From positions 1 to 53,670 of IMG/VR virus record IMGVR_UViG_3300048918_000117: DNA of 53,670 nt. One strand, given 5' to 3'. The translations under genes and the position numbers were made by a program. The notes below the pieces were generated by a model. It was not told the DNA's origin, did no database searches, and saw nothing but the letters and a program-made list of their open reading frames with translations. The DNA comes from a virus. This document shows positions 4,291 to 34,762 of the stretch, piece by piece. Each line of letters opens with the position of its first letter. The first letter of the stretch is position 1.

Positions 4291-7200
4291 TGCTGGTTGT
4301 TCAGCCTTCCTCGATCGCTGGAGAACCGCTCGCGACGGATGTCGGCGCGACGGGGGATTACGTTGTTGATGAAGATGTTCGGCATGTTGTCGGCGAACGG
4401 GACGTTCATACCGTTGAGGAACGGCATGAGCGACTCATTACCGTAGCGCGAGCCACCGCCACCGCCGCCACCAGGACCGAAGGCGTAGCCTCCACGCTTC
4501 GCGTAGGACGCGTAGTCCGCGGCCTGCAGGTCCTTGAGCTGGTCGGTGATAGCGGTCTGCGCGGCCTTGATCGCGTCCACGATGTCGGCGTCGTTCGGGA
4601 TGTCCCAGTTGCTGCCGATCTTCTGGAGCGCGCGACGACCGATGTTCTGCTGGGTGATCGGGTCGGTGGCGTTCAGGTTGCCGTCCTGGTTGAGACCGAA
4701 GGTCTGGGACTCGACTGCCTGAGTACCCTGGTACGGGTCGAGGCCGACCCACTGGTACAGGCTGCCGCGCTGGAGACCGGTCGCCCACGCCTTGCCGTCG
4801 GGACCGGTGGCGAACGTGGTGTTCAGCTGACGGTACCGAGTGGTCTGAGCGTAGGGCAGGCCGTTGTCACCGGCGAACTCACCCTGGTTCCAGACTACGT
4901 CGTTCAGGGGCGTAACGTACGGGTTGCTCTTGTCACCGTACCAGATCTTCGAGACACGGGCCTTGGCCTCTTCGTCGGTCAGACCAAGGGTCTCGCGACC
5001 CTCGATGTAGATCCGCTTCTGGAGGTCGACCATGATCGCCTGGCGAGTCGGGACGTCGATGTAGACGCCGTCGAGAGCAGGGTCGGTCGCCTTGACCGAG
5101 CCCATACCGAGCGACTGCAGGATGCGGTCTGCACCGTCACGAGTCAGGACCTCACGGTTGTTGTTCGGGTCCCAGACACTCAGGATGAGCGGCTCAGCCT
5201 GGTCGAAGCCCAGAGCCTTCTTGTACTGGACGACCTCGGACGGAACCATGTCCTGCCGCCAGTACGAGTTGATCGTGCCGGAGGTCGAGAACGCGATGTT
5301 GAGCATGGTCGCGAGGGTCGGACGCTCGGAGATAGCGGCGCGCAGCGCGCCTTCCTCTGGCGTGCGGTAGACCTTGCCCTCGTAGACGGTGCCGTCCGCG
5401 TTGGTCTTGTACTGGTATGCTTCGCTGGACTGCGGCACGCCGAGCTTGTCAGTAACGATGTTGCCCGACTCGTCGACCGCTCCGTACACCCACGGGTTAC
5501 GGTTATACTCGTCGGTGTTGACGTAGAGCGACGTGATGAAGTTGTTCTCGAGAGTCACCTTCTCCATCAGGAGCGCACCGGTCAGGAGCGGGTTGAGCGC
5601 GTCTGCGTACTCGCCCGGCGTCGCGGCCTTGTCGGCACCCTGTGCTGCGGCCTGGGCCAGAGCGGTGACGGTGTTGGCCGTGTCCTGCACGGAGAGGATC
5701 GACGAGAACGGCAGGGAGCCGACGGCGTCCTTGAAGCCTTCGAGCAGGTACGCGACGTTACCGGTGTCGAAGAAGTCGGCCATGCCCATTGCAGGGCTGA
5801 GGAACAGCTTAAGCGTCCAGTGAAGCTGGGCGGGGCTGCGCTCCGGCTGACCCTCGGCGTTCGGAGCCTGGAACAGCTCACCCAGCAAAGGGATGTTGTC
5901 CAGGTAGATCGCGTTGTAGTTACGGAAGTCGTTGGCGAGATCTTCCGGGTCGTACCACGCGCCGAGGCCCTGGTTCAGGTTGCGCTTGCGACGCTTGCGC
6001 TCTTCCTCGTCCTCGCCAGTTAGGCCGAGCGAACCGAAGATGAGACCCAGCATGAACAGGTGCATCTGGGTAACGCTGCCTCGGAGCATGGCCTCTGCGA
6101 GAGCGGTCTGGCCCATAACCTGCTCTTGCAGGTCGATAGCGTTCTCCAGGCCATTGTTGCGAGCGATGCCGTTGAAGACTCGGTTACCGAAAGTCTTACC
6201 ACCACGGCTGCCCTGGAGCAGAGTAGCTGCGATAGCGTTGAGACCCTGAGTACCGGTCGTGACCATGCCGGTGGTCCAGAAGAAGTTCTGGAAGACCGAC
6301 AGGCCCTTGAGGATGTTGCCCGACCAGTTGATCAGGGGGTTCGCCGAGTTGCGCGCGGCACCGAGCAGACCGTCCGTGATGGCTGCAGGGACCGTACGGT
6401 CGAAGCCCTTCTGGCGCTGGATCGCTCGCGACCCGACGTCGTGCAGGTCGGGTGCCTGCTCCTTGAGCATGCCACGGTTGTTACGCAGCATGAGCAGGAG
6501 TTCGCGCGGCGTGGTCGGGTGGTTCGTCGCGTGCATGTGACGGAGGATCGTGTCGATGTACATAGCGGCCTTGCCCCTCATGTACATACGGGACGTCGGG
6601 TCCTGCATGCGACCGAGGACGTCGAGCACCTTGTCGAGAGCCTCTTCGGGCTTGCCAGCGGAGGGGTCGATGACCTTGTGCTTCGACTCCGCGTTGATCT
6701 GGGTGCGCCACTCCTGTGAACCGGCGAGAGCCTCGATGACGTCTTGACGGAGCTTGAGGTCCTCCTGCGAGACGAACGGGGTCACGCCCGGAAGCAGGGC
6801 CTGGCCGTAGGTGCTCTGCAGGAACGACGGCCAGAGCTCGGTCAGAGCATTGTGCGTGCGGGCCGCGATCTGCTGCTGCCAGACGGTGGAACCGGTCAGC
6901 AGTCGCAGAGTCTTCTCCTGCGCACCGTTGCGGATTGCCTCAGCGCCACCCCAGATGATGATCTCAGGGTTAGCCATACCGACAGCAGCAACCCAGCGGT
7001 GCCAGACGCGGAAGGCGCGGTTGGAGAACGTGATCGCCGCACCCATCTTGCGGCCCTCGTTCACCTGCTGGCTGATGGTCTGCTTCGCCTTGGATTCCTT
7101 CTTGATACGGCGCTTGTCGAGGTAAGTCATCTTCTTACCGACACCGATGTAGGCGGGATACTCGCCGTCCTTGAGACCGGTGTTCCACGAGCCGCCGTAG

Positions 7201-10200
7201 TAGTACATACCGGACTGGCGACCGTTGCCGTCAGTCGGGTTGATCTCCAGCTGCTCCTGCGTGAGCGGGTCGAGTGTCGTGTACAGGCCACCGTCGCGAG
7301 GATCGATGAACCGGTCACGCACGGCGGGGTCGAGCGACACGATGTCCATGTCGAAGTAGTCTTCCCACGCGTGGACGAAGCCGTCCAGGGCGGGCAGGAA
7401 CTCCTGGTACGACAGCTGCGTGCCGTTCAGGATGATGTCACCCATGACGTGGTTGAAGGCTTCCTCCATGTTGGTGACGCCCTCTGGCAGCTTACCACCG
7501 TGTGCAAGGAGTTCCTGAACCATCTCCGGGTCAGGAATGAACAGGACTCCGCCCTCGGTCGGCCACTCCCCTGCCTCGATACGAGACAGGATCTGGTCGG
7601 CCTCGAACTCTGCGTCGGCCTGGAAGACCTCACCAGAGCGAGCGCCGGTCTCGTCCTTCTCGGACAGAGCAGCGAGGCGCTGGCGGACGAGCTGGTCGAC
7701 GAGGTAGCGGTAGTCACCGACAGGGGACAGGCCCCAGGCGTTGACGATGCGCTCGACGGTGTCGTTGTACAGCGTCGGGTCGGACCAGTTGCGCTGGTCC
7801 AGACGAGGCTGCGAGGCACGGTACCAACGAGTGGCCTTGGCACGAGCGATCTGCTCGCGCGGGGAGCGCAGACGGGTCTGCAGCTGGCGGTCGCGCGACC
7901 AGGCAGGCTTGGTGTCGAAGGTAGCTGCGACGCCCTCTGCCGTGTCGAGCGAGCCGACCATCGCTGCCTGACGGATCTGCTCCAGTCGCTTAGACGGAAC
8001 GTTGTAGCCCGTCTTGAGCATGGCGCTGTGAGTACCGAACGACGCCACCTGGAACGAGGAACGGTCGTCCGCGTTGGTGAGCTCGTGGTGCTCGACCAGC
8101 GCGGTGTAGTCCGAGCCGGTGGGCGACATGTGCGCCCACTGGTACATCTCCAGGTGCTCCTGACGCTTGCCGTTCTTCTGGGCGACGCGCTTGACTTCCC
8201 AGCTGGGCTGGAGTTCGTAGCCGTCCAGCAGCTCACCGGTCGCCTCGTCGTAGGTGTTCGACGTGTCGCGCAGGCGAGCGTTGATGTCGCGCTGGATCCA
8301 AGTCCGCAGGACATCGTAGCTGAACGCCTGCGACAGCGCCGGGCTGGGACGGAACGAGAAGCCGTTGCCGACGCCGATGTTGCTGATACCGGGAACGTTG
8401 ATCAGGTCCTCGATGCGGGTGCCCGGGTGCTTGAGCATCGCGGTCACCGCTTCGAGGTAGACCTTGCTGGCGGTCACCTGAGCGAGCGACTCAGCCGTGA
8501 AGCCGGTCTTGTAGCCGACCGGATAGCTGATCTGCATCTCCTGCTCACGAGCAAGAGCAGGGGTCAGGTACGCGTTCTTTTCGATGCCGTGAACGACCGC
8601 GTCAGCGAGCTCTGCACCGACGTAGATCGGGTCGTTCGCGCCCTCCTGCTGGATGGCACGGAGCGAGCGGATGACCGACTCGCGAACCTCCTGCTTCTGC
8701 ACGTCAGTCAAAGTCTCGTACTGGCTGGCGTCGGTGATACGACCACCCGTGTAGGTTGCAGTCGTTCCCTCTGCCAGCAGCGGGATGAAGTTGAAGCCCC
8801 AGAACGCAATGGCGTTGCCAGGGGCGTTCTGGACCTTGTCGAGCATACCCTTCTTGGCGGCGTCGCGGTAGCTGAGGTACATGGCGATGTGACGCTGACC
8901 GAGGACCGGCTTGCTGCTGACACCGAGCGGGGTCTCGGTGACCTCGACAGCGCGAGCCTTGTAGCCCGTGATGTTGATGAACTTGTTCGCGACGACACCC
9001 ATCGGCTGACGGAACTTGCCGCGCAGGCCGAAGCGCGGGTCTGGCTCCCAGTCCTCGATCGTACCGATCGGGGTGCTGGCGACGCTGGTCGACAGCTGCT
9101 TCTCCTGGTAGACAGCGATGTTCGGGAGGTTGTCTCCACCAGGATTACGCTTGAGCTGGCTGACTGCGTTGACGTCGTCGACCGGCTCGAAGCCAGCGAT
9201 GACAATACGGTAGCGACCGTTGTCGCCCTGCGTCAGGATGATGTCGCCGACGTTGAACGTCCTGTGACTCTTGCGCGGCAGGCCGTTGGCCGTGTCGAGC
9301 GTGTCCACAGCCTTGCGGACGCGTCCGCGCCAGGTGTCCACGAGGAGCTTGAACTCGCGGGAGTTCCTGTTGATCTGGCCGACCTCGAGCTCGGGGTCGG
9401 CAGCCAGCATGGACTGCTCTGCCAGGTACGCGTACCCGGTCATGTTGTCCAGCTGGGACAGGACGGTCTGCGCCTCGTTGCCCCACGCGTGGGTCATCGG
9501 GGTACCGAAGATGGTCGAGCCGGTGGTCGCGATCGCGCTGTTGCGGTACGCGGTACCTCCGATGAGACCGGCACGCTCGTCGTAGTACGCGCCGGACTCG
9601 TCCAGCGTGTACGAACCGTAGGCCATCAGGTGCGAGTCGTCTGCGTCGAGGTTCTCGACGTAGGTCCAGGCGGCGTCACGTGCTCGCTCATTGGCGTAGA
9701 GCGACGCGTTGTCAATCGGCTCCCACGTCGTGCCGTCCTGGCTGTAGTAGCCGAGGCTCTGCAGGATCTTCTTGCCCTCGGCGACCTGGTTCTGGTCGCG
9801 CGAGGCAAGAATGATCGGGTGGTGACGCTTAGCGAGGTCCGACAGGATGCTCTTGGCCCGGTTCTGGAAGTCCTTGCCGTAGATGTCACGGTCAAGACCG
9901 GACAGGTCGACAGCAAAGAAGTCCAGGTCGGGCGCGACGGCCTGCTGGCTGTTCGCGCTCCAGGTGTCCTTGGTCAGAACACCCTTGTCACGACCCTCGG
10001 CAGGGCTGGTGTTGGTGTCATACCACCACAGCACCGCGTTCTCCGAGAGCAGGCGGTCCGTCAGGACCTCGATCTGCTTCTTCGACATGAAGCGCTCGAA
10101 GTCGGGGCTGCCCTCGGTCGGAACCTTCTGGATCTTGGTCAGAGTCGAGGTCAGGAAGCCGAGGTTGAAGGTCGTGGCCTTGAACTCCGACAGCTTCTTG

Positions 10201-13200
10201 AGCGTCTGGCTGTTGATGTCGAGCCAGATGTTCTGCTTGTTGCCGATACGGTCGACTCGGACCTCGTCCTTTTCCTTGCGGAAGCGGTTCTTGACCTCGA
10301 TCGCCTTGCGACGCATCGTGATGCTCTCGATGCTCTTGCTGAGGTTGTTCGAGACACGCGCGGTGCTGGCCAGACGCGAGGCCGACAGCTGCTGCAGGAA
10401 CTGCTTGCGGCCCTTCGGCGTGGAGATGTCCACGTTGCCGAGCTTCGGGACCAGAGCGAGCATGTCGTCGCTGTACTGGCCGGTCCAGGGGTCCTGGTTG
10501 TTGACATAGGTCGCACCGACTGGACGCAGAGCAGCCTGCGCGAAGCGGTCGAAACCGCCACGCAGGGTGTTCAGGACGGTCTCGGACAGCCAGGTCACCT
10601 GCAGGTTGCCCTCGGGCTGAGCGCCCTGCAGGATCTGGTACGGCGTGTAGGACTTGCCCGCCTCGTCGGTCAGCATCATGTGGTCGACGACGGTCTTGTA
10701 CGCGTAGCGGTAGTTGTACCGGTCGAGAGGCTGACCGTCGCGCTCGATTGCCATGAACCCACGGACCTCGTCCTGGATGAAGGCTTCGAGGTTACCGGCG
10801 TAGTCGGTACCGGCAGGGGACACGATGCCGAGCTTCTGGATCGCGCTTGTAGCGTTCTTGCGCGAGTCGAAGACCGCACGAGTGCCCTGCTGGTTGGCGC
10901 TCTGTACACCGAAGTAGAACGCCTGGGTCAGCGAGTCTCCGTAGTCGCTGTCAGCAACGCCGATACGACCACCGAATGCCAGGTTGTTGGCATACTCCTC
11001 GCCGATCGGAGTGTCGAGCGGGTGGAAGTAGCTGAGCTCGACCGAGTCGATCTTGCCGCCCTCTGGGATGTTGATCGTCTGGTACGCAGCAGCGAACCGG
11101 TCGACATCGAAGGTGCGGTAGGTCGGGTCAGTGACGTCGGACTTGTCTTCGAGGTCAACGGAAACGGTCGGGTCGATTCCGTTGGACAGACGCTGGATCG
11201 GCAGCGAGACCTTACGACCGTCGGCCAGGGTCATGTTGACCATGATGCCGACGTTGTCGTTGGCCTCGCTGTACGGGTCGAGCAGGTCGACAGCGTTCCG
11301 ATCGCCGGTCGAGTGGACAGTCGCACCCTGCAGGATGTTCAGGTCCACGCCGCCGACAGGGTAGCCTGCCGCTGCGAGGTTGACGATGTCGAGAGCTTCC
11401 TCGTCGGTCAGGACCATCTTGCGGGCCATGTCGAGCGTGGGCCGCTTGAACGTGCGACGGTTGCTCGACATCTGAGTCTCGAGACGCTTGAAGCCAGAGC
11501 CGAGAGCGTCGATCTCGTGCATGCCTGCAGCCGAGCGAATCTTCTCGCGAGCCGAGATGTGCTGGATGACGTAGTCCGGCGAGTGCGGCGGCATGTCGTC
11601 CAGGTGCAGGATGTCGCCGAGAGCCTTGGGCACGTCGTCCACGGGCGTGGCCGGGGTCTCGACGCCGTAGGCGGTCGCACGGAACTTCGACGCCGACGCA
11701 GCCAGGTCGTAGAGCATGTCGGTCAGGTAGGACCGGTCACCGCGCATGAAGAACTGGTAGGCATCGGTCGAGAAGTACGAGCCGTTGTTCACGGTGTCGG
11801 GGCTACGACGCGACGGCTGAACCTCAAGGTTCGTCGCGATCGCAGTGGAGATGAGGTCCCAGTCGCCTTCCTTGAGCGAGTCAGGGTTCCGCTTCCACTG
11901 CGTGATCGCCTGCGACTCCTTGTTGTCGCTCATGCTGGTCAGGTCGTCCGCGTACCGGTTGAGGTACTGCGTGAGGTTCGCCTTCATGAGCGTGACCTGG
12001 TCGGCGTTGGCCCAGTCGAACTTCGTGCTGGCCAGCGTGTACTCGGCAGCGGTCTGAGCCTGAGCCTGCGCGTGCAGGATGTACTCCTGCAGCTGCAGAG
12101 CCGCGAGCTCCTCCGGAGACTTGGCGTTCTGCTTGGCCAGCAGGATCTTCTGCTGTTCCTCGTCGATAACACGCGCGATCGACGGCATCAGCGGGTCGAG
12201 CTCGCCTGCCTTGGTCTTGAGCGCAGTGGTACGAGCCAGGTCTTTGTACATCTTGACGTTGTCGGGAGTCAGGTTCCCGACCGTCTTGAGGGCACGAGCA
12301 AGGTCGACGACCGCGTTCTCGTACGAGTTCTCATGCTTGGCGTGAGCTTCTGCACTCTGACCCGACCGCAGAGTCATGAGAGCGGTCAGGAGCTCGGTGA
12401 CGAGGTAGTCGCCATGCAGGGACTGGACGAGACGAACGTACTCGTGCGAGTCCCAGAACGAGTCGGACTCCTGCAGGCGACGGTAGTGCGAGCCGTCGAC
12501 CCACTCCTGAAGGCCACGTCCGGCCTTCTGCGTGACCATACGGGTCTGGCCTTCGCCGTCAGTCGAGTAGCTCGACGGCCAGAAGATCTGCTGGAACAGT
12601 GGCTTGAAGAATCCGTTCTTCGCCTTGTACATGTCGAGCCAGCCCTCGACGTCGACCTCACCGTTGGCGTCGGTCGGGTTCCAGTCGAACGTCGAGCCGT
12701 CGTCCATCTGGATGCGGAGCGGCTGGAGCAGACGACGCGGGTTGGCGGTGAGCTCGTCGACGTAGATCGAGAACCGTTCCATCGTGGCGAGCTCGTGGAC
12801 GCTGGCGAACAGACGGCCCTGGAACAGAGCCTCCGTGTCGCCGAGGCCCTTGGTGCCGAAGCCCGACTCGCCCTTCTTGGCCGCGTTGTTGTCGATGCCC
12901 TCGACCAGGGTAAGAACCGCCAGCTGCTGGGTGTCGCCAGCAACTGTCGGGTTCTGGAACAGCAGCGCCTGCTCGATACGAGTCTTGACCAGCTTCTTGA
13001 TCGACGGGTTCTGTCTGATCTGCTGGTCGTAGGCGAGGTCGTCGGCCTCGTTGTCGGCGATCGTTTTGATACGACCGCCAGCGAGGTTGACGTACTGCTG
13101 CAGGTTTCGCATGGCCTCGCGGCGCTCGGTGTTGCTGCTGATCCACTGCCAGCCACCACGCGTCGCAGACAGGTCGGACAGGAACGTGTCCGACGTGTAG

Positions 13201-16200
13201 GCCAGGAGCGGGACATCGTCCTTGCGGAAGGTCTTGTTGACCCACGCCTCGAAGTCCATCAGGTCCTTGGCGTCGGCGATCCGGTCGAGGAACTCGTCGA
13301 TGCGACCGAGAGCCTGGATCTTGCGCATCGCAAGCACCCAGGGGTCGGTCGGGTCGCTGATCGCGTTCTCCAGCGTCTGGTTGTCCATCTGGAACTTGTG
13401 GATGAGCACGTTGCGGAACATGATCATCGCAGCCTCTTCGGGCTGTGCGAGAAGCATCTCGTAGACCCAGCGAGGAACGGTCGCGACGTTGATCTCGCCG
13501 TTCGGGTCGGCAGGCAGGAACGCCTGCAGAGTCTTCGGGAACAGCTTGAGGACCTGCTTGATGAGCTCGGTGTTGGTGCTGAGCTCGGTTGCCAGGTGTG
13601 CCGGGCCTTCCTTGCGCAGTCGCGCCAGGTTGAGCGGCTTGCCACGGAACTGCCGGGACACGCGGTCCAGGATGTCGCGGACACCCTGCATGGCACGGAG
13701 CATGTCTTCGTGCTCAGCCCGGTTGAGGGTAGCCAGCTCACCGAGCGGGCGACCGTTCTCACCGTGGGTCAGTTGAGTGTCCACGTTGCCAGTCACCGTG
13801 TCCACGAAGAACGTCCACGGGGTCATGACAGTGCCCGACTCGTACGGGAAGCCGTTCTTGACCGGCTTGCCGTCGAAGGTCGTGGCGGAGGCGGGGTCGC
13901 GCCTCCAACGAGTCCGAAGCGCGCTACGAGCATCGGCACCGAGGCCCATGTAGCGCGCGTTGATCATAGCCATGCTCTTGCCGGTCAGGTTGTGCTTGGC
14001 GGCGAGCTCGTCACCGACAATCGCCTCGACAGGCATGGCTGCGACCAGAGCGTTCGATGCGCCTTCTGGACTCAGGTTCCGATAGTATTGGATGCGCTTG
14101 GACTGCTCGCTCTCGTCGAGGCCGCTGTTGCGGGCCTCCATGTCAGCAGCGCTCCGCATGATGAGCTGCAGCACAGACACCGTGTTGCGCTCGCCGCGTC
14201 GCGTCTCCCAGAACGGAATCTGGTTGTTGACATCGTATTCAGTTGCCTCTGCAACAGTCATGGCCGCCAGGTTCGGCAGCACGAACTGGAGAGGAACGTC
14301 CGGGTACAGGACCTTCGCCAGGGCTTCGACGTCCTTGCGGGCCTGTGCAACGATCGGGTCGGCGTTCTTGACCAGCTGGTCGATCTTGCTGGTCTGACGC
14401 CCGCTGTTGATCGCGGTGTAGATGCGGATGAGCTCCTGCATCATGGGGTTCGGGTTCTCGTAGTTGCCCGAAACGAAGTCCTCGTTGTTGTACGAGTTGT
14501 ACGCGAGGCGAGTCTCGTTGCGGAACGTGTCCGAACCGTACGTAGCTTGGTGCAGGCTGATGCCGAGCGTGGAACCGGCCTGCGCAGCCTCGGTGCTCAC
14601 ACGACCGGCGACCGCCTCCGGCGTGGACGGCAGAGCGCCGTTCTCGTGGAGCAGCTGAGTGGTGACTCGCTGCGCGTTCTTCATGCGGAAGTCCTGCTGG
14701 TGAGCCTGGATGAGGCCCTCGATCAGCAGGATCGAGGAGCGGTTCTCGTAGACACGCGTGATCGGCTCGGCGTCGCCCTGCGGAATCTGGACCTCGGTCC
14801 GGAGCATGGACAGACGCTCCATGTTGTCAGGGTAGAGGCTGGCTAGCGTCTTGTAGAGGTTGGCCTTCCAGTCCTCGTTGCCGGAGCCGTACTCGCCGAC
14901 CATGTCGTTGCCATTCGAGTCCTTGACTCGGACGCGCAGCTGCGTCGCCTTGTCGACGCGGGACTTGCCGACAGCCTGCTCGACGACCTCGTTCGGGATA
15001 CCGACCGTCGCGAAGATCTTCTTGAGGCTCATCTCGAGACCCATGAGGAAGTTGTTCGCGATCGCGTTGTGCTCGTCGTCGGGGCTGGTCAGGGACTCCT
15101 GCACCAGCTGACGAGCATCCATCTCGTACTTGCGGTCGGGGACGTTGTAGGTACCGTCCGGCTTCTTGAGGAAGCTACCGTCCTTGATGCGCTGAGCTGC
15201 AATGCGGTTGATCGGGGCTGCACGAAGCTGCAGCTTGGCCTGGTCGCCGTCGGTGTCGGCGCTCAGGGCGTCGAAGACGGACTGGGACAGCTGCAGCACG
15301 CCGTTGCCGGACAGGATGTCGCCGTAGCCGTTGTCCATGCCCTGCGACAGCGAGTGGCTGACCTGCGGCACGATCGGGACGAACGAGCCGGGGTTGTCGT
15401 TCGGGTAGCGGGACACCATGAAGATGCCCTCGGTACGCGTGAACTCGTCGGACTGAGGGGGCAGGTTGCCGTTGTCGTCCGGCATGTAGCCGTTGGCGAT
15501 ACTGTTGAACAGGCCGTTGATCGAGTCGACCGCACTGAGGTCGCCGGTCAGGTAGAGCTCGTGCAGGTCGTCGAAGATCTGCTTGGTCCGCATGTGGAAC
15601 GCGAGAGCCTTCTGCGCGTACTCCAGGTTCGCCTGGATGTCTTCGGCGTTCTCGGACTGCTGCAGGTCCTTCTGACCGGCCTTGATGACGTCCTGCAGCT
15701 GCTGGATCTTGTCCGACAGCATGTGGCTGGTGGACTCCCAGGACTGGTAGCCTGCGTCCTCAAGACCCTTGCGGATGTCGGAGATCGGAGCGAGCGCGCG
15801 CATGTTCTCGACGCCGTCGCCCTGCAGCTTGATGCGGGCCTCCAGGTCGCTGGAGGCGTCGTACGCCTGCTCCAGGAACGCGTTGGTGTAGGCCTGGTCA
15901 CGCTGCCAGTCACGGGCGATTCGACGCATGCCCTCGCCCATGATGCGGGTCTCGTGCGTCTTGAGTGTCGTGGCGTCAGCACGAGCGGCGGGGTTCATCG
16001 CCTTGAGATCCTTCATCGTGATCTCAGGCTCGCCGTTGACGAAGTTGCGAGCGTTGATGCGGTCCAGGTCGCGCTGGTCGTTGTTCTGGTTGCGAGCAAC
16101 GCGAGCGGCGAAGTGTGTACCGGCAGTCTGGCCAGCACCACCGGCGAAGCCCATGAGCGCGGCCTGCACGATCTGGTCTCGCATGCCGTTGGTGTCGGAG

Positions 16201-17780
16201 TAGCCGACAGCGACGTTGTCGAGGACGGTCTGCGCGACCTCTTCGACCGCCTCGTGCCAGCCGTTGGTGATGACCTGGTACATGGCGGGAGCGTGGTGGA
16301 TGCGCTCAGCAGCGTTGAACAGGTCCTGGCTGGTGATCTTCGCGCCGGTCTTGTTGGCGGCGAGAGCAGCACCACGCAGGCCGACCCACTCGATCATGGT
16401 GGAAGGAGCCAGGAACGCAGGCACAGCATCGGCGATCTTGCGCCCGAGCGAGCGTTCCTGGACCGCCCAGTTGCCCGCGTCGTCCTGGATGCGGGTGAAC
16501 GTACGGCCACCGGCCTGCGTGACCTCGCTGGTCGCTGCACGCTCGGCACCGATCGCAGCTTTCGCGCTGCGGAACAGGATGCTCGGCACGAACATCTGAG
16601 CAGCGTCGATGCCAGCAGAGGCGGCAGCAGCGAGCACGTTGTCCGGCGTGACCCAGCTCTGGCTGTAGTCGCTCCAGACCTTGCCACCGGTCAGGCTCAG
16701 CGCCTTGCCAGTGGCGGCAGCGCCCATGCTGGCGGTGTACGCGACACGACCAGGGGCGCTCGCAGACAGCAGAGCGGAGTCACCGAACTGCAGCACGCCA
16801 TCGAGCACGTCTGCGCCGAGACCCTTGTTCTGGGTCTGGTAGTAGGCGGACTGTCCGTCGCCGATACCACCCGGCAGGGCAGCGTCATAGATGCCGTGCT
16901 CAATCGCACGCAGGGTTCCGGAGTTCATGGCCAGACCGCCGAAGGCCTGAGCAGCACCACCGATACCGACGGCGGCGTTCTGCTTGAAGCCCTGGCTGGT
17001 CTGGTCGGTCGCGCGAGCAGCGAGGTCGATGACCTCGTCCCGGTTCAGCAGACCGCCGACGAAGCCAGCGATCGAGCCACCCACAGCGCCCCACGGACCG
17101 AACGCCGCGCCCTGCAGGGCACCCATGCCGGTCTGAGCAGCGATGGCGATCGGAGCATCGAAGCCCGACTTCTTCCAGTCGGCCTTGAGCTTGGAGACAC
17201 GTTCCTCGGTCTCGCGGCTGGTAAGGCCAGCTTCGACCGTCTTGCCTTCCTTGGTACCCTGCTGGAGCGTCTGCTCCTTGATCGCGTCCTGGTTTCCGTC
17301 GGCGTCACGGTAGATTCGACCCGCGTCTTTCCCCGTAACGAGCGGAGTCAGGATCGCGTTGGCCTCTTCGGTGGTGACGTTCGAGTTGTGGTCGTACAGG
17401 TTGTATTGGAACTTCCCGTTCTCGTACACGTCACCGGTCTTGAAGTTGCGCTTGTCCGGGTCGCCGTCCTTGAACTGCTGATCCCAGGTAACGATACCCG
17501 TGAAGTCCTTGTTCTGGAACAGACGAGACTGGTAGGTAGGATCAGCGTCGATCTTAGCCTGCTCAGCATCGCGCTGCTTGCGCATCTGGTCGTAGAACTC
17601 GTTGCTGAACCCGGACTTTTCGCTGTTCGGGTTGCCACCAGTCTGCCACGCGGGAAGGCGGTTCGGATTCTGGTTGCCAGCTTTGACACCGTTGAAGTTC
17701 GACCAGTCCGTCGTCAAACCACTTGGAGCGTTATCCTTCGGGGTGTTGTCCTGACCGAAGGTGGACCAGTCTGTTGCCAC
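4287..17780 (-). CDS. giant virion protein (4497 aa) with RNA-polymerase beta-prime-like catalytic motif
   Basis: One uninterrupted frame takes a quarter of the genome. The start is GTG at 17778-17780 after AAGGAGTTACCG, and the stop overlaps the portal ATG. The N-terminus (1-200) is polar. Residues about 217-243 are Gly/Ala-rich and hydrophobic, and 640-740 are predicted coiled helices. Residues about 787-850 run from MVSRYPNDNPGS to VLQLSQSVFDALSADTDGDQ. The DTDGD aspartates are D842, D844 and D846 (bases 15243-15257), and this stretch aligns by eye with the NADFDGD region of RNA polymerase beta-prime. A compact alpha/beta-like region lies at about 2617-2677. Two hydrophobic stretches near 3812-3856 and 3900-3915 could cross a membrane, and the C-terminus has a poly-Gly linker. 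Position before the portal, and size, suggest an ejected internal virion protein. I cannot place the second barrel expected of a two-barrel RNA polymerase. Confidence 0.75.
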   Translation of the reverse strand: MATDWSTFGQDNTPKDNAPSGLTTDWSNFNGVKAGNQNPNRLPAWQTGGNPNSEKSGFSNEFYDQMRKQRDAEQAKIDADPTYQSRLFQNKDFTGIVTWDQQFKDGDPDKRNFKTGDVYENGKFQYNLYDHNSNVTTEEANAILTPLVTGKDAGRIYRDADGNQDAIKEQTLQQGTKEGKTVEAGLTSRETEERVSKLKADWKKSGFDAPIAIAAQTGMGALQGAAFGPWGAVGGSIAGFVGGLLNRDEVIDLAARATDQTSQGFKQNAAVGIGGAAQAFGGLAMNSGTLRAIEHGIYDAALPGGIGDGQSAYYQTQNKGLGADVLDGVLQFGDSALLSASAPGRVAYTASMGAAATGKALSLTGGKVWSDYSQSWVTPDNVLAAAASAGIDAAQMFVPSILFRSAKAAIGAERAATSEVTQAGGRTFTRIQDDAGNWAVQERSLGRKIADAVPAFLAPSTMIEWVGLRGAALAANKTGAKITSQDLFNAAERIHHAPAMYQVITNGWHEAVEEVAQTVLDNVAVGYSDTNGMRDQIVQAALMGFAGGAGQTAGTHFAARVARNQNNDQRDLDRINARNFVNGEPEITMKDLKAMNPAARADATTLKTHETRIMGEGMRRIARDWQRDQAYTNAFLEQAYDASSDLEARIKLQGDGVENMRALAPISDIRKGLEDAGYQSWESTSHMLSDKIQQLQDVIKAGQKDLQQSENAEDIQANLEYAQKALAFHMRTKQIFDDLHELYLTGDLSAVDSINGLFNSIANGYMPDDNGNLPPQSDEFTRTEGIFMVSRYPNDNPGSFVPIVPQVSHSLSQGMDNGYGDILSGNGVLQLSQSVFDALSADTDGDQAKLQLRAAPINRIAAQRIKDGSFLKKPDGTYNVPDRKYEMDARQLVQESLTSPDDEHNAIANNFLMGLEMSLKKIFATVGIPNEVVEQAVGKSRVDKATQLRVRVKDSNGNDMVGEYGSGNEDWKANLYKTLASLYPDNMERLSMLRTEVQIPQGDAEPITRVYENRSSILLIEGLIQAHQQDFRMKNAQRVTTQLLHENGALPSTPEAVAGRVSTEAAQAGSTLGISLHQATYGSDTFRNETRLAYNSYNNEDFVSGNYENPNPMMQELIRIYTAINSGRQTSKIDQLVKNADPIVAQARKDVEALAKVLYPDVPLQFVLPNLAAMTVAEATEYDVNNQIPFWETRRGERNTVSVLQLIMRSAADMEARNSGLDESEQSKRIQYYRNLSPEGASNALVAAMPVEAIVGDELAAKHNLTGKSMAMINARYMGLGADARSALRTRWRRDPASATTFDGKPVKNGFPYESGTVMTPWTFFVDTVTGNVDTQLTHGENGRPLGELATLNRAEHEDMLRAMQGVRDILDRVSRQFRGKPLNLARLRKEGPAHLATELSTNTELIKQVLKLFPKTLQAFLPADPNGEINVATVPRWVYEMLLAQPEEAAMIMFRNVLIHKFQMDNQTLENAISDPTDPWVLAMRKIQALGRIDEFLDRIADAKDLMDFEAWVNKTFRKDDVPLLAYTSDTFLSDLSATRGGWQWISSNTERREAMRNLQQYVNLAGGRIKTIADNEADDLAYDQQIRQNPSIKKLVKTRIEQALLFQNPTVAGDTQQLAVLTLVEGIDNNAAKKGESGFGTKGLGDTEALFQGRLFASVHELATMERFSIYVDELTANPRRLLQPLRIQMDDGSTFDWNPTDANGEVDVEGWLDMYKAKNGFFKPLFQQIFWPSSYSTDGEGQTRMVTQKAGRGLQEWVDGSHYRRLQESDSFWDSHEYVRLVQSLHGDYLVTELLTALMTLRSGQSAEAHAKHENSYENAVVDLARALKTVGNLTPDNVKMYKDLARTTALKTKAGELDPLMPSIARVIDEEQQKILLAKQNAKSPEELAALQLQEYILHAQAQAQTAAEYTLASTKFDWANADQVTLMKANLTQYLNRYADDLTSMSDNKESQAITQWKRNPDSLKEGDWDLISTAIATNLEVQPSRRSPDTVNNGSYFSTDAYQFFMRGDRSYLTDMLYDLAASASKFRATAYGVETPATPVDDVPKALGDILHLDDMPPHSPDYVIQHISAREKIRSAAGMHEIDALGSGFKRLETQMSSNRRTFKRPTLDMARKMVLTDEEALDIVNLAAAGYPVGGVDLNILQGATVHSTGDRNAVDLLDPYSEANDNVGIMVNMTLADGRKVSLPIQRLSNGIDPTVSVDLEDKSDVTDPTYRTFDVDRFAAAYQTINIPEGGKIDSVELSYFHPLDTPIGEEYANNLAFGGRIGVADSDYGDSLTQAFYFGVQSANQQGTRAVFDSRKNATSAIQKLGIVSPAGTDYAGNLEAFIQDEVRGFMAIERDGQPLDRYNYRYAYKTVVDHMMLTDEAGKSYTPYQILQGAQPEGNLQVTWLSETVLNTLRGGFDRFAQAALRPVGATYVNNQDPWTGQYSDDMLALVPKLGNVDISTPKGRKQFLQQLSASRLASTARVSNNLSKSIESITMRRKAIEVKNRFRKEKDEVRVDRIGNKQNIWLDINSQTLKKLSEFKATTFNLGFLTSTLTKIQKVPTEGSPDFERFMSKKQIEVLTDRLLSENAVLWWYDTNTSPAEGRDKGVLTKDTWSANSQQAVAPDLDFFAVDLSGLDRDIYGKDFQNRAKSILSDLAKRHHPIILASRDQNQVAEGKKILQSLGYYSQDGTTWEPIDNASLYANERARDAAWTYVENLDADDSHLMAYGSYTLDESGAYYDERAGLIGGTAYRNSAIATTGSTIFGTPMTHAWGNEAQTVLSQLDNMTGYAYLAEQSMLAADPELEVGQINRNSREFKLLVDTWRGRVRKAVDTLDTANGLPRKSHRTFNVGDIILTQGDNGRYRIVIAGFEPVDDVNAVSQLKRNPGGDNLPNIAVYQEKQLSTSVASTPIGTIEDWEPDPRFGLRGKFRQPMGVVANKFINITGYKARAVEVTETPLGVSSKPVLGQRHIAMYLSYRDAAKKGMLDKVQNAPGNAIAFWGFNFIPLLAEGTTATYTGGRITDASQYETLTDVQKQEVRESVIRSLRAIQQEGANDPIYVGAELADAVVHGIEKNAYLTPALAREQEMQISYPVGYKTGFTAESLAQVTASKVYLEAVTAMLKHPGTRIEDLINVPGISNIGVGNGFSFRPSPALSQAFSYDVLRTWIQRDINARLRDTSNTYDEATGELLDGYELQPSWEVKRVAQKNGKRQEHLEMYQWAHMSPTGSDYTALVEHHELTNADDRSSFQVASFGTHSAMLKTGYNVPSKRLEQIRQAAMVGSLDTAEGVAATFDTKPAWSRDRQLQTRLRSPREQIARAKATRWYRASQPRLDQRNWSDPTLYNDTVERIVNAWGLSPVGDYRYLVDQLVRQRLAALSEKDETGARSGEVFQADAEFEADQILSRIEAGEWPTEGGVLFIPDPEMVQELLAHGGKLPEGVTNMEEAFNHVMGDIILNGTQLSYQEFLPALDGFVHAWEDYFDMDIVSLDPAVRDRFIDPRDGGLYTTLDPLTQEQLEINPTDGNGRQSGMYYYGGSWNTGLKDGEYPAYIGVGKKMTYLDKRRIKKESKAKQTISQQVNEGRKMGAAITFSNRAFRVWHRWVAAVGMANPEIIIWGGAEAIRNGAQEKTLRLLTGSTVWQQQIAARTHNALTELWPSFLQSTYGQALLPGVTPFVSQEDLKLRQDVIEALAGSQEWRTQINAESKHKVIDPSAGKPEEALDKVLDVLGRMQDPTSRMYMRGKAAMYIDTILRHMHATNHPTTPRELLLMLRNNRGMLKEQAPDLHDVGSRAIQRQKGFDRTVPAAITDGLLGAARNSANPLINWSGNILKGLSVFQNFFWTTGMVTTGTQGLNAIAATLLQGSRGGKTFGNRVFNGIARNNGLENAIDLQEQVMGQTALAEAMLRGSVTQMHLFMLGLIFGSLGLTGEDEEERKRRKRNLNQGLGAWYDPEDLANDFRNYNAIYLDNIPLLGELFQAPNAEGQPERSPAQLHWTLKLFLSPAMGMADFFDTGNVAYLLEGFKDAVGSLPFSSILSVQDTANTVTALAQAAAQGADKAATPGEYADALNPLLTGALLMEKVTLENNFITSLYVNTDEYNRNPWVYGAVDESGNIVTDKLGVPQSSEAYQYKTNADGTVYEGKVYRTPEEGALRAAISERPTLATMLNIAFSTSGTINSYWRQDMVPSEVVQYKKALGFDQAEPLILSVWDPNNNREVLTRDGADRILQSLGMGSVKATDPALDGVYIDVPTRQAIMVDLQKRIYIEGRETLGLTDEEAKARVSKIWYGDKSNPYVTPLNDVVWNQGEFAGDNGLPYAQTTRYRQLNTTFATGPDGKAWATGLQRGSLYQWVGLDPYQGTQAVESQTFGLNQDGNLNATDPITQQNIGRRALQKIGSNWDIPNDADIVDAIKAAQTAITDQLKDLQAADYASYAKRGGYAFGPGGGGGGGSRYGNESLMPFLNGMNVPFADNMPNIFINNVIPRRADIRRERFSSDRGRLNNQQ

Positions 17781-18655: not shown

Positions 18656-18662
18656 CAAGTAA

Positions 18663-18700
18663 CAAATGCGTTAGCTGAAAAGCTAATGCATTTGTTTTTT
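18663..18700 (+). terminator. intrinsic terminator after the 122-aa gene
   Basis: Bases 18663-18676 pair with 18681-18694 (14 bp with one G-T wobble) around a GAAA loop, followed by a run of six T. This is a textbook rho-independent terminator and one of the few in this genome with a T-tract. Confidence 0.9.
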
Positions 18701-18721
18701 ATTTAATTTTTTCTTTATATG

Positions 18722-18847
18722 GCAATACAAATTCTCACGTTAGCGAATAGCCTAGTACATAATGAATTTATATCTAGCCACTTGGCGCTTGCCTCGCTGA
18801 ATAGCGAGGTGGTTAACCAATTGAAACGCTCGTGGAATTTGTATTGC
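18722..18847. ncRNA. large branched structure: candidate non-coding RNA or origin cruciform
   Basis: Bases 18722-18734 are the perfect 13-bp complement of 18835-18847. The pairing continues after a bulged T as CACG (18736-18739) with CGTG (18831-18834), and after a TT bulge as AGCG (18742-18745) with CGCT (18827-18830), giving a 21-bp closing stem. Inside are a CTAG-closed AT-rich arm (18752-18777) and an arm TTGG/CCAA enclosing a perfect 7-bp CCTCGCT-GAAT-AGCGAGG hairpin (18792-18809). The region has no ORF. It could be an RNA on either strand or a DNA cruciform. A minus-strand promoter-like sequence points into it. Confidence 0.5.
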
Positions 18848-18849
18848 TC

Positions 18850-18878
18850 ATTATAGTATCTTTTTAAGAACTAGTTAA
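18850..18878 (-). promoter_or_regulatory. candidate promoter reading into the branched structure
   Basis: On the minus strand, TTAACT (18878-18873) and a perfect TATAAT (18855-18850) are separated by 17 bases. The expected start, about 18844, lies within the closing stem of the 18722-18847 structure. It is the only TATAAT in the window for which I see a reasonable -35 element at optimal spacing. Confidence 0.5.
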
Positions 18879-18960
18879 TAAATTTTTAATATTAACTTTG
18901 TTAATATATTTTAATTATCTTTTTATTGTTACTGTCTTTATTTATATTGTATATCACTAG

Positions 18961-19018
18961 TGCTTGTCACGTCTCTAATCACATTGCTTGTCACATTGCT
19001 TGTCACATTACGTGAGAC
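18961..19018 (+). repeat. 12-bp-phased iteron array (TGCTTGTCAC)
   Basis: TGCTTGTCAC occurs exactly at 18961-18970, 18985-18994 and 18997-19006. Degenerate copies (6 of 10 matches) fall on the same 12-bp phase at 18973 and 19009. Five units with a fixed 12-bp period next to an AT-rich region resemble iterons bound by a replication initiator. Confidence 0.65.
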
Positions 19019-19040: not shown

Positions 19041-19327
19041 GCGTAACCGGTTGTAACCGCCCGCAACCGCGGGCGTAACCGGTCCGCTTGCCATGCGGGA
19101 CATGGAAAGGTGGGGCGTAACCGGTTGTAACCGGCCGCGCGGAACCTTTCTATAGTCCACATATACTGGCAACTACTTCAGAACTACCACCTGGTTGGGG
19201 AAAACCGGTTACTTCCGGTTACGCCCCAGCTTACCATGTCTCGCATGGGAACCAGCGTAACCGTTGGGGCGGTTACGCCCGGTTACAACCGGTTACGCCG
19301 GGCCGGGTGGCTCCATGCAACGCATGG
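19041..19327. repeat. complex inverted-repeat region built from GTAACC half-sites
   Basis: GTAACC starts at 19043, 19053, 19075, 19117, 19127 and 19257; its complement GGTTAC starts at 19207, 19217, 19271, 19281 and 19291. Most neighbours are 10 bp apart. Bases 19114-19134 are the exact reverse complement of 19279-19299, and 19112-19134 match 19205-19227 at 21 of 23 positions in inverted orientation. Bases 19255-19263 and 19270-19278 form a 9-bp hairpin. Three CCATG-N5-CATGG hairpins lie at 19091-19105, 19234-19248 and 19313-19327. A cooperative protein-binding locus such as an origin or operator cluster is the likely reading. Confidence 0.75.
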
Positions 19328-19534: not shown

Positions 19535-19572
19535 TTTATTGAAAGTGAAATGGTTTATTGGAAATGAAATGG
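19535..19572 (+). repeat. two tandem 19-bp repeats upstream of the early operon
   Basis: Bases 19535-19553 and 19554-19572 are head-to-tail copies of a 19-mer (TTTATTGRAARTGAAATGG) matching at 17 of 19 positions. They end 46 bases before the ATG at 19619 and directly precede TATAGA. They may be a tandem operator or activator site for the early promoter. Confidence 0.55.
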
Positions 19573-20736: not shown

Positions 20737-20764
20737 CACATGTACCCGACGTGTGCTATTGGTA

Positions 20765-20800
20765 GCGTCCCAGTCCGCGACCCGAAGCGGGCTGGGACGC
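20765..20800 (+). terminator. 14-bp hairpin terminator
   Basis: Bases 20765-20778 pair with 20787-20800 (one T-G wobble) around an 8-base loop. It closes the first early sub-operon. There is no T-run; instead a TATAAT box starts two bases after the hairpin. Confidence 0.7.
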
Positions 20801-20802
20801 GC

Positions 20803-20808
20803 TATAAT
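20803..20808 (+). promoter_or_regulatory. TATAAT box for the 154-aa gene
   Basis: A perfect TATAAT directly follows the terminator hairpin and lies 137 bases before the ATG of the next gene. There is no recognisable -35 hexamer because that position is inside the hairpin. The long leader contains the palindromes at 20884-20912. Confidence 0.5.
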
Positions 20809-20883
20809 GGTTACACGCCACTCCCACCGCCTGCGGTGTGTGGCCCAAGATCCGGCACCGGCGTCCCGGCTCTTGGACCGCAC

Positions 20884-20912
20884 ACTGGGTACGGTACCCA
20901 GTAACCGGTTAC
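20884..20912 (+). promoter_or_regulatory. two overlapping palindromes, candidate operator
   Basis: ACTGGGTAC-G-GTACCCAGT (20884-20902) is a perfect 19-base palindrome. It overlaps by two bases GTAACCGGTTAC (20901-20912), a perfect 12-base palindrome made of the same GTAACC half-site that is repeated eleven times at 19043-19296. The site lies in the leader of the 154-aa gene, so a protein that binds the control region may also act here. Confidence 0.6.
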
Positions 20913-20945
20913 ACAGACCGCCCACAATGGAAGGAATACCACATC

Positions 20946-21410
20946 ATGGCACCGAAGAAGTCCGACGAGACCGTGTCCACCGAGGTCAGCGAGGCGGCCG
21001 CCGCCACCCGCGCCGAGATCGGCAACCGTCCGCGTCAGAGCGTGAAGCGCTTCGTGGAGCACTACATCGTCATCAAGGAGACCGCGCCCGACGAGCTGGA
21101 CCGCCTGTTCGGCGACCAGCAGGCGGCGCTGGAGGAGAACGTCGACAAGGTCGACAACCCCGTCCAGGCCGCGATCGAGAAGGCGACGACCGAGCTGCGC
21201 GACCGCTCGATCAAGGCCCTCGAGAACGAGGACGAGCTCAACGGCTACGCCCACTACGTCTTCGACCAGGAGACGTTCGACGAGAAGACCCGCGTCAAGG
21301 CCCCGCGCACCCGCAAGACCGTCGCCGAGAAGGCCACGGACCTGCTGGCCGAGGCGTCCGACGAGGACCTCGCCGCCCTCAAGGAGCTGCTCGCCGCTCG
21401 CGGTCTCTGA
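20946..21410 (+). CDS. hypothetical, probably highly expressed early protein (154 aa)
   Basis: It starts MAPKKSDETVSTEVSE after AATGGAAGGAAT. It is charged, alanine-rich and almost entirely helical, with a basic patch late in the sequence (KAPRTRKTVAEK) and an acidic helix after it (EASDEDLAALKELL). No family is recognised. It is a single-gene unit with its own TATAAT box, palindromic operator-like leader and strong terminator. Third codon positions are nearly all G or C, more extreme than its neighbours, which suggests high expression. An abundant nucleic-acid-binding or host-modulating protein is possible, but this is inference. Confidence 0.8.
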   Translation: MAPKKSDETVSTEVSEAAAATRAEIGNRPRQSVKRFVEHYIVIKETAPDELDRLFGDQQAALEENVDKVDNPVQAAIEKATTELRDRSIKALENEDELNGYAHYVFDQETFDEKTRVKAPRTRKTVAEKATDLLAEASDEDLAALKELLAARGL

Positions 21411-21426
21411 TCTCAACAGAACCGCC

Positions 21427-21465
21427 AAGGCCGTCACCCGCTTATCCGGGTGGCGGCCTTGCTTT
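21427..21465 (+). terminator. intrinsic terminator after the 154-aa gene
   Basis: Bases 21427-21440 pair with 21447-21460 (AAGGCCG-T-CACCCG against its partner, one T-G wobble), loop CTTATC, followed by GCTTTAT. It isolates the 154-aa gene from the next cluster. Confidence 0.85.
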
Positions 21466-21484
21466 ATGTAACTAGGAGGTAACT

Positions 21485-32533: not shown

Positions 32534-33943
32534 ATGCCACGACTCCGGACTCCACTGGAAAGAGCGAGTATTGCTGACACGCTCGTAACAACTTTCGGGC
32601 TAGTGGAGTACCAGGGTTCGCTGTACATGCCTCAGCATTTCACGACCAGGGAGCCGTTCCCGGCTACGCCGGAAGAGACGATCTGGGTTCCGCTATCGCA
32701 GCGGAAGGTGATGGCAATGGCGAACTTCGCTGGCATCCTATTTCTGAACGACGGAGAGATCCGTTCGTTCGTGGGGATGCTACGACAGCTGGCGACGCAG
32801 GAGCTCGATGCTCAGGGCCTGCTCGTTAATGTTGACAACAAGGAAGTGAAGCTGCTCGGTGAAGACGGTAAGCTCCACGATGTGACGGGCGACTTCGTCC
32901 CGAACTATCTGGATGTCCCGTATCAGAGCAAGAACCCACTGGCTGATGAGCTGTTCAAGATCATCGTCGAGTGGTTGGGGAGCGAAGAACAGGCGCGCAG
33001 CTTGCTGCACCACCTGGCTACGATACTCCAGCCGGGGTTCAGCGCCGTGAAGTACGTCCTCATGCTAGGTAAGGGACGTAACGGTAAATCGACACTGCTG
33101 AAGATGCTCAAGAAGCTGATCGGCGCTGACAACGTCAGCGGCGTAAAGCGACAAGACATGGCAGTGACGAGTGTGATCATGAAGTCACTGAACAATAAGC
33201 TGGCGAACATTGTCTTCGACGGTCCGAAGGAGTTCCTGAAGGACAGTAGTACGGAGAAGACGCTGATCGCCGGTGAGGAACTGGTTATCGAGCTCAAGTA
33301 CGAGAACGAACCTGTGACGATCCAGACGAACGCTCTGTTCATCGAGGGTCTGCAGCAGGAGCCGAAGGTAAGCGACAAGTCAGTCGCACTTCAGAAGCGG
33401 TTGGTTCGCTTCTGGTTCCCGAATGAGTACGCGCTGGACCTCAAGTTCGAGGAGCGTATGCTCAAGCCAGATATGCTGGCTGCGCTGCTACATCTGCTGC
33501 TCATGCACTGGGTCAACCGGGACGAGGTTGCTACTAAGCTCGCCCTCACGGTTGAGAGCATGGACCTGCAGATGGAGTCTGTGTGGCAGGCGTCGAGTGT
33601 GCTGCGCTTCCTGGAGGAAACAGCACGACGAGACCCGCAGTTCTTGACCAACATCCTCGCTAAGAAGATGATGACGGATGTGTTCCTGACCAGCTACCGC
33701 CCGTGGCTGGACTCGAACGGGTACAAGAACATGGAGGATGACTACCTCCTGACACAGCTGAACGATCACTTCACGATGGATCGGAAGTCGTTCAGGGTCG
33801 AGGGTCGTACCACGACCCGACGCTACATCAAGACTGTGTCACCCGACACACTCAACGTAATGAACAGACTGTTGGCAGGCCACGGCCTTGAGGATCTCAA
33901 GGGAGATGAAGCTGACGTTCTGAACGACGCTATGGAAGGATAG
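32534..33943 (+). CDS. SF3-type (D5/P4-like) replicative helicase (469 aa)
   Basis: Residues about 100-330 form a primase-associated SF3 helicase: Walker A GKGRNGKSTLLKML (near 178), Walker B-like LANIVFDGPKE (near 223), and a sensor-like QTNALFIEGLQQEP (near 264) followed by arginines (LQKRLVRFWFP). The N-terminal 100 residues resemble the D5_N-type helical region. It should unwind DNA 3'-5' as a hexamer at the fork. In many phages this module is fused to a primase; here the primase is the next gene, three bases downstream. Confidence 0.85.
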   Translation: MPRLRTPLERASIADTLVTTFGLVEYQGSLYMPQHFTTREPFPATPEETIWVPLSQRKVMAMANFAGILFLNDGEIRSFVGMLRQLATQELDAQGLLVNVDNKEVKLLGEDGKLHDVTGDFVPNYLDVPYQSKNPLADELFKIIVEWLGSEEQARSLLHHLATILQPGFSAVKYVLMLGKGRNGKSTLLKMLKKLIGADNVSGVKRQDMAVTSVIMKSLNNKLANIVFDGPKEFLKDSSTEKTLIAGEELVIELKYENEPVTIQTNALFIEGLQQEPKVSDKSVALQKRLVRFWFPNEYALDLKFEERMLKPDMLAALLHLLLMHWVNRDEVATKLALTVESMDLQMESVWQASSVLRFLEETARRDPQFLTNILAKKMMTDVFLTSYRPWLDSNGYKNMEDDYLLTQLNDHFTMDRKSFRVEGRTTTRRYIKTVSPDTLNVMNRLLAGHGLEDLKGDEADVLNDAMEG

Positions 33944-33946
33944 CTA

Positions 33947-34762
33947 GTGCAGACGAAGAGATGGTTCGAGAACCTCGAACAGTACACGGTCGAGAACCCT
34001 GTACCGCGACAGCTGGAGTACGACAAGCTGTCCCTGGTCCGTGTCTACCCGAACGGGAAGACGCAGCCGGGCTGGGGCGGTAAGGAGTTCGTCGACAACT
34101 ATGCGAAGAACGCATTCGACCCGGCACGAGCACTGCGCTTCTACCAGAAGTACGGTGCGCCGTTCGGGATCGTGATGCGCTCGCTGCCGTTCCTCTGCGT
34201 CGATATCGACGGCAAGAACGGCGGCATCGAGACTGCTCGCACGCTGAACCTCCCCGAGACGTTCGCGGAGCGAAGCAAGAGCAACAACGGGTTCCACCTG
34301 TTCTACAGGATTCCGTACACCAACTGGGTCCACGACCGTGGGTTCAGCGAGTATCCTGACCTCATCGGTCTGGTACCGGGTGTGGACATCAAGGGAACGG
34401 GTGTGGTGTTCCACCACAAGCAGCAGCGCTGGAACGACCTGGAGGTCGCAGAGGCTCCGGTGTCGCTCATGTCGGTCGTCGGGCGTGCCCGCGACGCGCG
34501 GCGTGCGGCGAGGGTCACGCGCAGCGGGACACAGTCGCTGGACCCGGAAGAGCTGCTGATGGTGCACGACGAGCTTCTGACCGATCTTGCAGGGCGGTTC
34601 GAAGTTGGGAAGCGCAACCAGAAGCTGTTCGCGATTGCAGCAAGGATGCTGGCTGCAGGTGTGCCGCACTGGGACACGCTGGTGTATGACAGAGGCTTGG
34701 AGATCGGGCTGGAACTGGACGAGATCCAGGAGCTCATCAACAACGTCGACAAGTACAGCTGA
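33947..34762 (+). CDS. PrimPol-type (archaeo-eukaryotic) primase (271 aa)
   Basis: The bifunctional primase/polymerase N-terminal family pattern is present: FLCVDIDGKNGG with the catalytic DxD (D86, D88), SNNGFHLFYRIP supplying the conserved histidine (near 115), and GVDIKGTGVVFHH (near 145). The C-terminal 80 residues are helical and may contact the adjacent helicase. It would make primers for the family A polymerase. GTG start, three bases after the helicase stop. The freestanding primase is the reciprocal half of the usual primase-helicase fusion. Confidence 0.85.
   Translation: MQTKRWFENLEQYTVENPVPRQLEYDKLSLVRVYPNGKTQPGWGGKEFVDNYAKNAFDPARALRFYQKYGAPFGIVMRSLPFLCVDIDGKNGGIETARTLNLPETFAERSKSNNGFHLFYRIPYTNWVHDRGFSEYPDLIGLVPGVDIKGTGVVFHHKQQRWNDLEVAEAPVSLMSVVGRARDARRAARVTRSGTQSLDPEELLMVHDELLTDLAGRFEVGKRNQKLFAIAARMLAAGVPHWDTLVYDRGLEIGLELDEIQELINNVDKYS

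Follow-up and report, generated by a model that had tools for sequence, protein, structure and literature searches.

In plasmids and lambdoid phages, iteron origins are clusters of short repeats about one helical turn apart with an adjoining AT-richer stretch, and their initiators are RepA/Rep-type or O-type proteins that lack a helicase of their own. In the satellite islands of the PICI/SaPI type, which carry no virion genes, the origin adjoins the rep gene in a compact module. The PICI origins consist of two iteron sets around an AT-rich region, and the function of the pri-rep-ori unit has been tested (PMC6092414). In P4, the primase (of the Toprim type), the helicase and origin binding are combined in a single protein, alpha, which binds the origin repeats by its C-terminal winged helix (PMC4234260).

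The locus analyzed here belongs to a 53,670-base virus record (IMG/VR IMGVR_UViG_3300048918_000117); this whole stretch of DNA, at its full length, is referred to below as the window. It represents a lytic podophage genome of ~54 kb, with genes for the terminase large subunit and the tail. The early operon, which runs rightward from ~19620, encodes a Cas4-type exonuclease, DNA polymerase I, a DEAD-box helicase, an SF3 helicase and a PrimPol, and the virion genes in the right part of the genome run leftward. Between this operon and a small rightward ORF that ends at 18655, 1 kb of non-coding DNA contains an array of short sites that is probably an iteron replication origin read by the C-terminal domain of the phage SF3 helicase.

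Like the PICI/SaPI pri-rep-ori, this system comprises two sets of short iterons around a central stretch (in 29 of 38 phages, including the window phage; this stretch is mostly AT-richer than the flanks), an SF3 candidate initiator with the fold of SaPI Rep/PriRep, and a neighboring primase function. It differs from the compact PICI/SaPI module in that the putative origin lies ~13 kb from the candidate initiator gene, and from the satellite islands in being part of a complete phage genome, in the presence of interleaved CCATG-N5-CATGG palindromes and in the location of the PrimPol on a separate gene. With P4 alpha and its origin, the window shares an SF3 helicase, whose C-terminal part has a predicted winged-helix topology that may correspond to the origin-binding domain of alpha; unlike in P4, a gene of its own encodes the primase, a PrimPol. 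Short repeats clustered at intervals of roughly one helical turn are common to the window and to plasmid and lambdoid origins, and the adjoining stretch is AT-richer, if only mildly so in the window; the initiators differ, that of the window being likely the helicase itself. Given the distance between the origin and the initiator gene, the full phage genome and the separate PrimPol, we do not classify this system as a PICI or P4 replicon; by analogy, we propose that it would work in the same way as the PICI/SaPI and P4 origins.

Among named phages, those nearest to the window phage belong to cluster EK of the Microbacterium phages (subfamily Eekayvirinae: Akonivirus, Tinytimothyvirus), with Burrovirus more distant. 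To our knowledge, no origin has been mapped in this group, and a search of the literature outside subscription journals found no paper that combines Microbacterium phages with iterons. The cluster EK and Burro phages, including their giant gene, were described in 2020 (PMC7302621); the published accounts of cluster EK (PMC7302621, PMC8281081) make no mention of the array and give no origin.

The GTAACC array of the window phage

The array and the palindromes associated with it consist of the following parts:

19043-19132, plus strand: left iteron set, with GTAACC at 19043, 19053, 19075, 19117 and 19127
19133-19206: central spacer, bounded on either side by one of the facing inner pairs; presumed melting region
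19207-19296, minus strand: right iteron set, with GGTTAC at 19207, 19217, 19271, 19281 and 19291, enclosing one forward GTAACC (19257)
19091-19105: interleaved palindrome CCATG-CGGGA-CATGG
19234-19248: interleaved palindrome CCATG-TCTCG-CATGG, which has the consensus sequence of the cultured relatives
19313-19327: palindrome CCATG-CAACG-CATGG, at the right edge of the array

An exact-word count gives 11 GTAACC hexamers, six forward and five reverse, within 254 bp (19043-19296), the densest cluster of this word in the genome; AACCGG, drawn from the same sites of the array, is present in 12 copies, and hexamers elsewhere in the genome reach at most 7 per 255 bp. Given the frequency of GTAACC in the genome, 11 copies in 255 bp have a Poisson probability of 4e-17, and 2000 dinucleotide shuffles of the array stretch yielded a mean of 0.67 and a maximum of 5 copies, which bears out the claim of the preliminary description that 11 GTAACC/GGTTAC half-sites occur here far more densely than expected by chance. 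An extended site, GCGTAACCGG, is present in five copies, all within the array. Iteron origins have a cluster of at least three short repeats that lie, outside genes, roughly a helical turn from each other, and the array shows such a cluster. The spacer is mildly AT-rich, with a GC content of 51% compared to 62% in the flanks.

Two further claims, of 10-bp phasing on one face of the helix and of a giant palindrome, hold in part. Five of the gaps between neighboring sites are exactly 10 bp; over the whole window array, however, phase coherence with a single helical face is not significant (p=0.087), and given this value and the gaps of 8-12 bp in related phages, placement on the same face can be only approximate. 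The inverted copies at 19114-19134 and 19279-19299 are indeed identical at 21 of 21 positions, and 70% of positions agree when 19041-19298 is compared with its reverse complement. The relatives share just two facing sets around a central spacer; to judge from the sequences compared, the near-perfect giant palindrome is peculiar to the window phage.

The GC skew of the plus strand at third codon positions is positive (0.10 to 0.34) in all tested leftward genes and about zero in most rightward ones, and over the whole window it shows no inversion at the array. GC skew is positive over most of the genome and does not mark the array. An Rfam search returned nothing that reached the gathering threshold, with one snoRNA match at chance level (E 0.13).

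The cluster EK genomes are circularly permuted (PMC8281081), so that a packaging start is expected somewhere in them, and the array could conceivably be a packaging (pac) or segregation site for the terminase or a partition protein. We consider this very unlikely given that the terminase gene is located ~17 kb from the array, that no partition gene was found among the proteins scanned and that the phages are described as lytic.

The palindromes, which escaped the preliminary description, have the form CCATG-N5-CATGG and occur only three times in the genome (19091, 19234 and 19313). Single palindromes of the window show modest folding as DNA. CCATG-TCTCG-CATGG or close variants are interleaved with the sites in all 17 named relatives, usually ~20 bp after one iteron block and 24 bp before the next, and these offsets account for iteron blocks often being 42-44 bp apart. 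In several remoter phages, about the same position is occupied by other sequence, for example CAGGTCAGAG/CTCTGACCTG, instead. The palindrome alone is not diagnostic because the CCATGTCTCGCATGG bait also matched unrelated DNA in contigs L045, L046, L048, L049, L050, L055 and L057. The palindromes may either be sites for a second protein or form small hairpins once the DNA has been opened.

Layout and site words in related phages

We compared the array with the equivalent gap of 17 named phages and with environmental relatives that were found via the SF3 helicase and via the palindrome; the N-terminus of the giant protein, used as a bait for relatives, yielded no loci. The preliminary description had staked its reading on the presence of the half-sites in closely related phages. 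A comparable array, consisting of 5 to 17 short sites, was found at the same place in all 38 phages examined (the window phage included), that is, in every relative compared, with words that differ by lineage. Among the same-strand gaps shorter than 16 bp in these 38 phages, 165 of 169 are 8-12 bp long. Inner sites face each other over a spacer of 50-100 bp (mean 75) in 29 of the 38 phages; in the remaining nine, additional sites interrupt the spacer or it is longer, exceeding 200 bp in both G020 and G024. The 50-100 bp spacers have a mean GC content of 0.41 (32-54% in the relatives), mostly below that of the flanks.

The site words include GTAACC, GAACCG, GGTAACG, GTAACGA, GTGTATC, GTAGTCAC, GTAGACAC, AAAACGCG and TTAGAAGC, each characteristic of a lineage. 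Akonivirus-type phages possess 13-14 GTAACC sites; Tinytimothyvirus, Zhengyi and KingKamren, 12-13 GAACCG sites; and two Burroviruses, 12 GGTAACG sites. The environmental relatives use GTAACC, GGTAACG, GTAACGA, GTGTATC, GTAGTCAC, GTAGACAC, AAAACGCG or TTAGAAGC, and one of the GTAGTCAC type carries GCAGTCAC. G018 showed no clear iteron word. In L168 and L171 (G020 and G024), a small number of sites, with the words AAAACGCG and TTAGAAGC, surround a long AT-rich spacer that exceeds 200 bp; these arrays are a divergent version of the common layout.

The 300-nt stretch that encompasses the array of the window phage, when folded as single-stranded DNA, is far more stable than its shuffled versions (z -10.75), which would be compatible with a single-stranded or cruciform structure in which the hexamers are mere by-products of a long hairpin. 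However, the relatives retain the sites and their spacing and vary the orientation of the sites outside the inner pairs, so that a long hairpin is not the conserved feature, and we regard this explanation, too, as very improbable.

All 17 named relatives were isolated on Microbacterium foliorum, in most cases recorded as strain NRRL B-24224, and the phages of clusters EK1 and EK2 and the Burroviruses from this host use three different words (GTAACC, GAACCG and GGTAACG). The GlnR sites of actinomycetes contain GTnAC words, and a host protein borrowed by the phage, such as a GlnR-like regulator, might be thought to read the resembling sites of the array. The use of three words at the same place by phages of a single host species makes a host reader a most improbable candidate and points to a reader encoded by the phages themselves.

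The SF3 helicase as the likely reader of the array

The proteins considered here are encoded in the early operon as follows:

32534-33943, plus strand: SF3 (DUF5906) helicase, annotated as 'DNA primase' in relatives; candidate initiator
33635-33904, plus strand: C-terminal domain of the SF3 helicase (residues 368-457), predicted to fold as a winged helix with a beta wing and presumed to read the iterons
33947-34762, plus strand: PrimPol (PF09250), adjoining the helicase gene; presumed priming partner

The SF3 gene is located ~13 kb from the array (32.5 kb and 19.2 kb, respectively) and is found at the same place in 17 of 17 named relatives; PrimPol is present in 30 of 30 phages. Profile searches matched DUF5906 in all 16 members of the SF3 family and, weakly, Pox_D5 in the C-terminal part of 9 of the 16. 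The domain order of D5-type proteins is D5_N, DUF5906, Pox_D5 (PMC9611036). An AlphaFold2 model built from 56 sequences (pLDDT 92.3, pTM 0.87) has as its best PDB match the SaPI5 primase-helicase (PDB 7OLA; Foldseek E 5e-18, VIA Z 27.7), which is also the best match by sequence (E 1e-11); African swine fever virus PrimPol, poxvirus D5/E5 and phage NrS-1 rank next in the structural comparison. The last part of the model follows the order helix-helix-strand-strand-helix, a winged-helix pattern. Modeled alone (pLDDT 84), the C-terminal domain matched mostly winged-helix structures, all weakly (best Z 5.5), and the P4 origin-binding domain is absent among these fold matches.

To relate sites and proteins, we set the similarity between the site consensus sequences of 29 phages against the identity of regions of their proteins. 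When the consensus words were set by hand, the C-terminal domain of the SF3 helicase gave the highest rank correlation with site similarity (rho 0.746), followed by the first domain of the same protein (0.657), PrimPol (0.526), the helicase core (0.501) and the DNA polymerase (0.500). With the identities of PrimPol and the polymerase held constant, the C-terminal domain retained r of 0.62, compared to 0.32 for the first domain and 0.10 for the helicase core; with the C-terminal domain held constant, the polymerase, PrimPol and the helicase core kept little or no signal. A second version, in which site similarity was derived automatically from repeated 5-mers, again ranked the C-terminal domain first, among seven protein regions (rho 0.692, partial r 0.577). 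The permutation (Mantel-type) p-values are optimistic in this comparison because the phages are related. Residues 1-130 of the SF3 protein also carry some signal (partial r 0.32-0.40). As candidate readers, PrimPol and the DNA polymerase were rejected for partial signals weaker than that of the C-terminal domain in the 5-mer version (0.33 and 0.20), and the DEAD-box helicase and a 202-aa protein (34846-35454) for the lack of any partial signal.

Among pairs of phages with a background identity of 50-60%, the C-terminal domains are 0.56 identical when the site word is the same and 0.43 when it differs, whereas the helicase core has 0.64 in both cases. The window phage, with its GTAACC word, combines a helicase core nearer to the GAACC-type phages (0.715, compared to 0.673 to the GTAACC type) with a C-terminal domain nearer to the GTAACC-type phages (0.588 and 0.512 to the GAACC type). 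At residue 430, in the wing, every TAAC-type protein compared has K or R, and 9 of 9 GAACC-type proteins have L; given that the GAACC group looks like a single lineage and that the columns separating the two types are spread across the SF3 protein as well as the wing, this switch is weak evidence by itself. Taken with the predicted fold, the co-variation suggests that the phage SF3 helicase is the likely reader of the array, via its C-terminal winged helix.

The array might instead be a master operator, through which a phage DNA-binding protein, possibly the SF3 helicase, controls the early genes from ~19620 and the small gene on the left. The location of the array in the control region before the early operon fits such a role, and multiple sites could permit graded control. 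Yet a promoter scan found no promoter-like site within the array and nothing above chance in the region; the extended GCGTAACCGG sites occur nowhere else in the genome, unlike those of a regulon; the ~12 sites around a spacer have the layout of an origin; and the co-varying protein is a helicase. Together, these observations make an operator unlikely. Of the roles offered in the preliminary description (replication origin, segregation site or master operator), the comparison lends good support to the origin, with the other two less favored, and the suggested occupation of many sites by one protein is plausible, with the SF3 helicase as a candidate. Points against the origin are the absence of a skew inversion at the array, the mild AT-richness of the window spacer and the ~13 kb that separate the SF3 gene from the array.

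A possible replication mechanism

The array, its conserved place, the change of its word between lineages, the fold match of the helicase and the co-variation of the site with the C-terminal domain were observed; binding, melting, priming and origin activity we infer as follows. Several copies of the SF3 helicase would bind the tandem GTAACC sites via the C-terminal winged helix, and as the two sets face each other, hexamers could assemble on either side of the central spacer, melt it and begin unwinding. The neighboring PrimPol would then make primers, to be extended by the phage DNA polymerase I.

More tentatively, we suggest that the whole phage group may use a single layout with an interchangeable word, the nine or more iteron sequences each having a fitting SF3 winged helix, so that relatives that co-infect one host could replicate independently; the palindrome might then be a second, more slowly changing code for another factor.

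For a group of podophages, the array and the helicase are thereby concrete candidates for the origin and its initiator, and they link the replication of lytic phages with that of SaPI-type satellites. The natural pairs of site and presumed reader, at least nine in number, could reveal the rules by which a winged-helix SF3 initiator recognizes its sites, and they are candidates for mutually independent replicons in actinobacterial plasmids.

Other features of the region

Several additional elements were observed around the array. The only credible terminator in the scanned region, outside the array, is a strong hairpin at 18661-18696, with 16 pairs and a T-rich tail, directly after the small ORF. 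A very AT-rich segment (13% GC) at 18850-18940 lies ~100 bp to the left of the array; the relatives read showed nothing comparably AT-rich there. Directly to the left of the array, TGCTTGTCAC words are repeated at 18961-19008, and similar words are found upstream of a small ORF in PhriedRice and Akoni. On the other side, a tandem 19-bp repeat, TTTATTGRAARTGAAATGG, at 19535-19572, directly precedes the first early gene. The perfect palindrome GTAACCGGTTAC, formed by two facing iteron words, is present once in the genome, at 20901-20912, inside the ORF 20753-21475. Far to the left, a giant leftward gene of 4497 codons (4287-17780, minus strand) occupies the position of the 13-kb gene of cluster EK (PMC7302621).

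Finally, a conserved RNA-like element with the form CTAG-stem-...CGCTTGC-hairpin is located a few hundred bases to the left of the array, on the strand of the early genes (18774-18822, plus strand, within a larger fold at 18715-18860). It matches no Rfam family; the 146-nt fold of the window has a z of -5.4, and the stem pairs in 21 of 21 distinct sequences of relatives, with many compensatory changes. This element is possibly a new small RNA.
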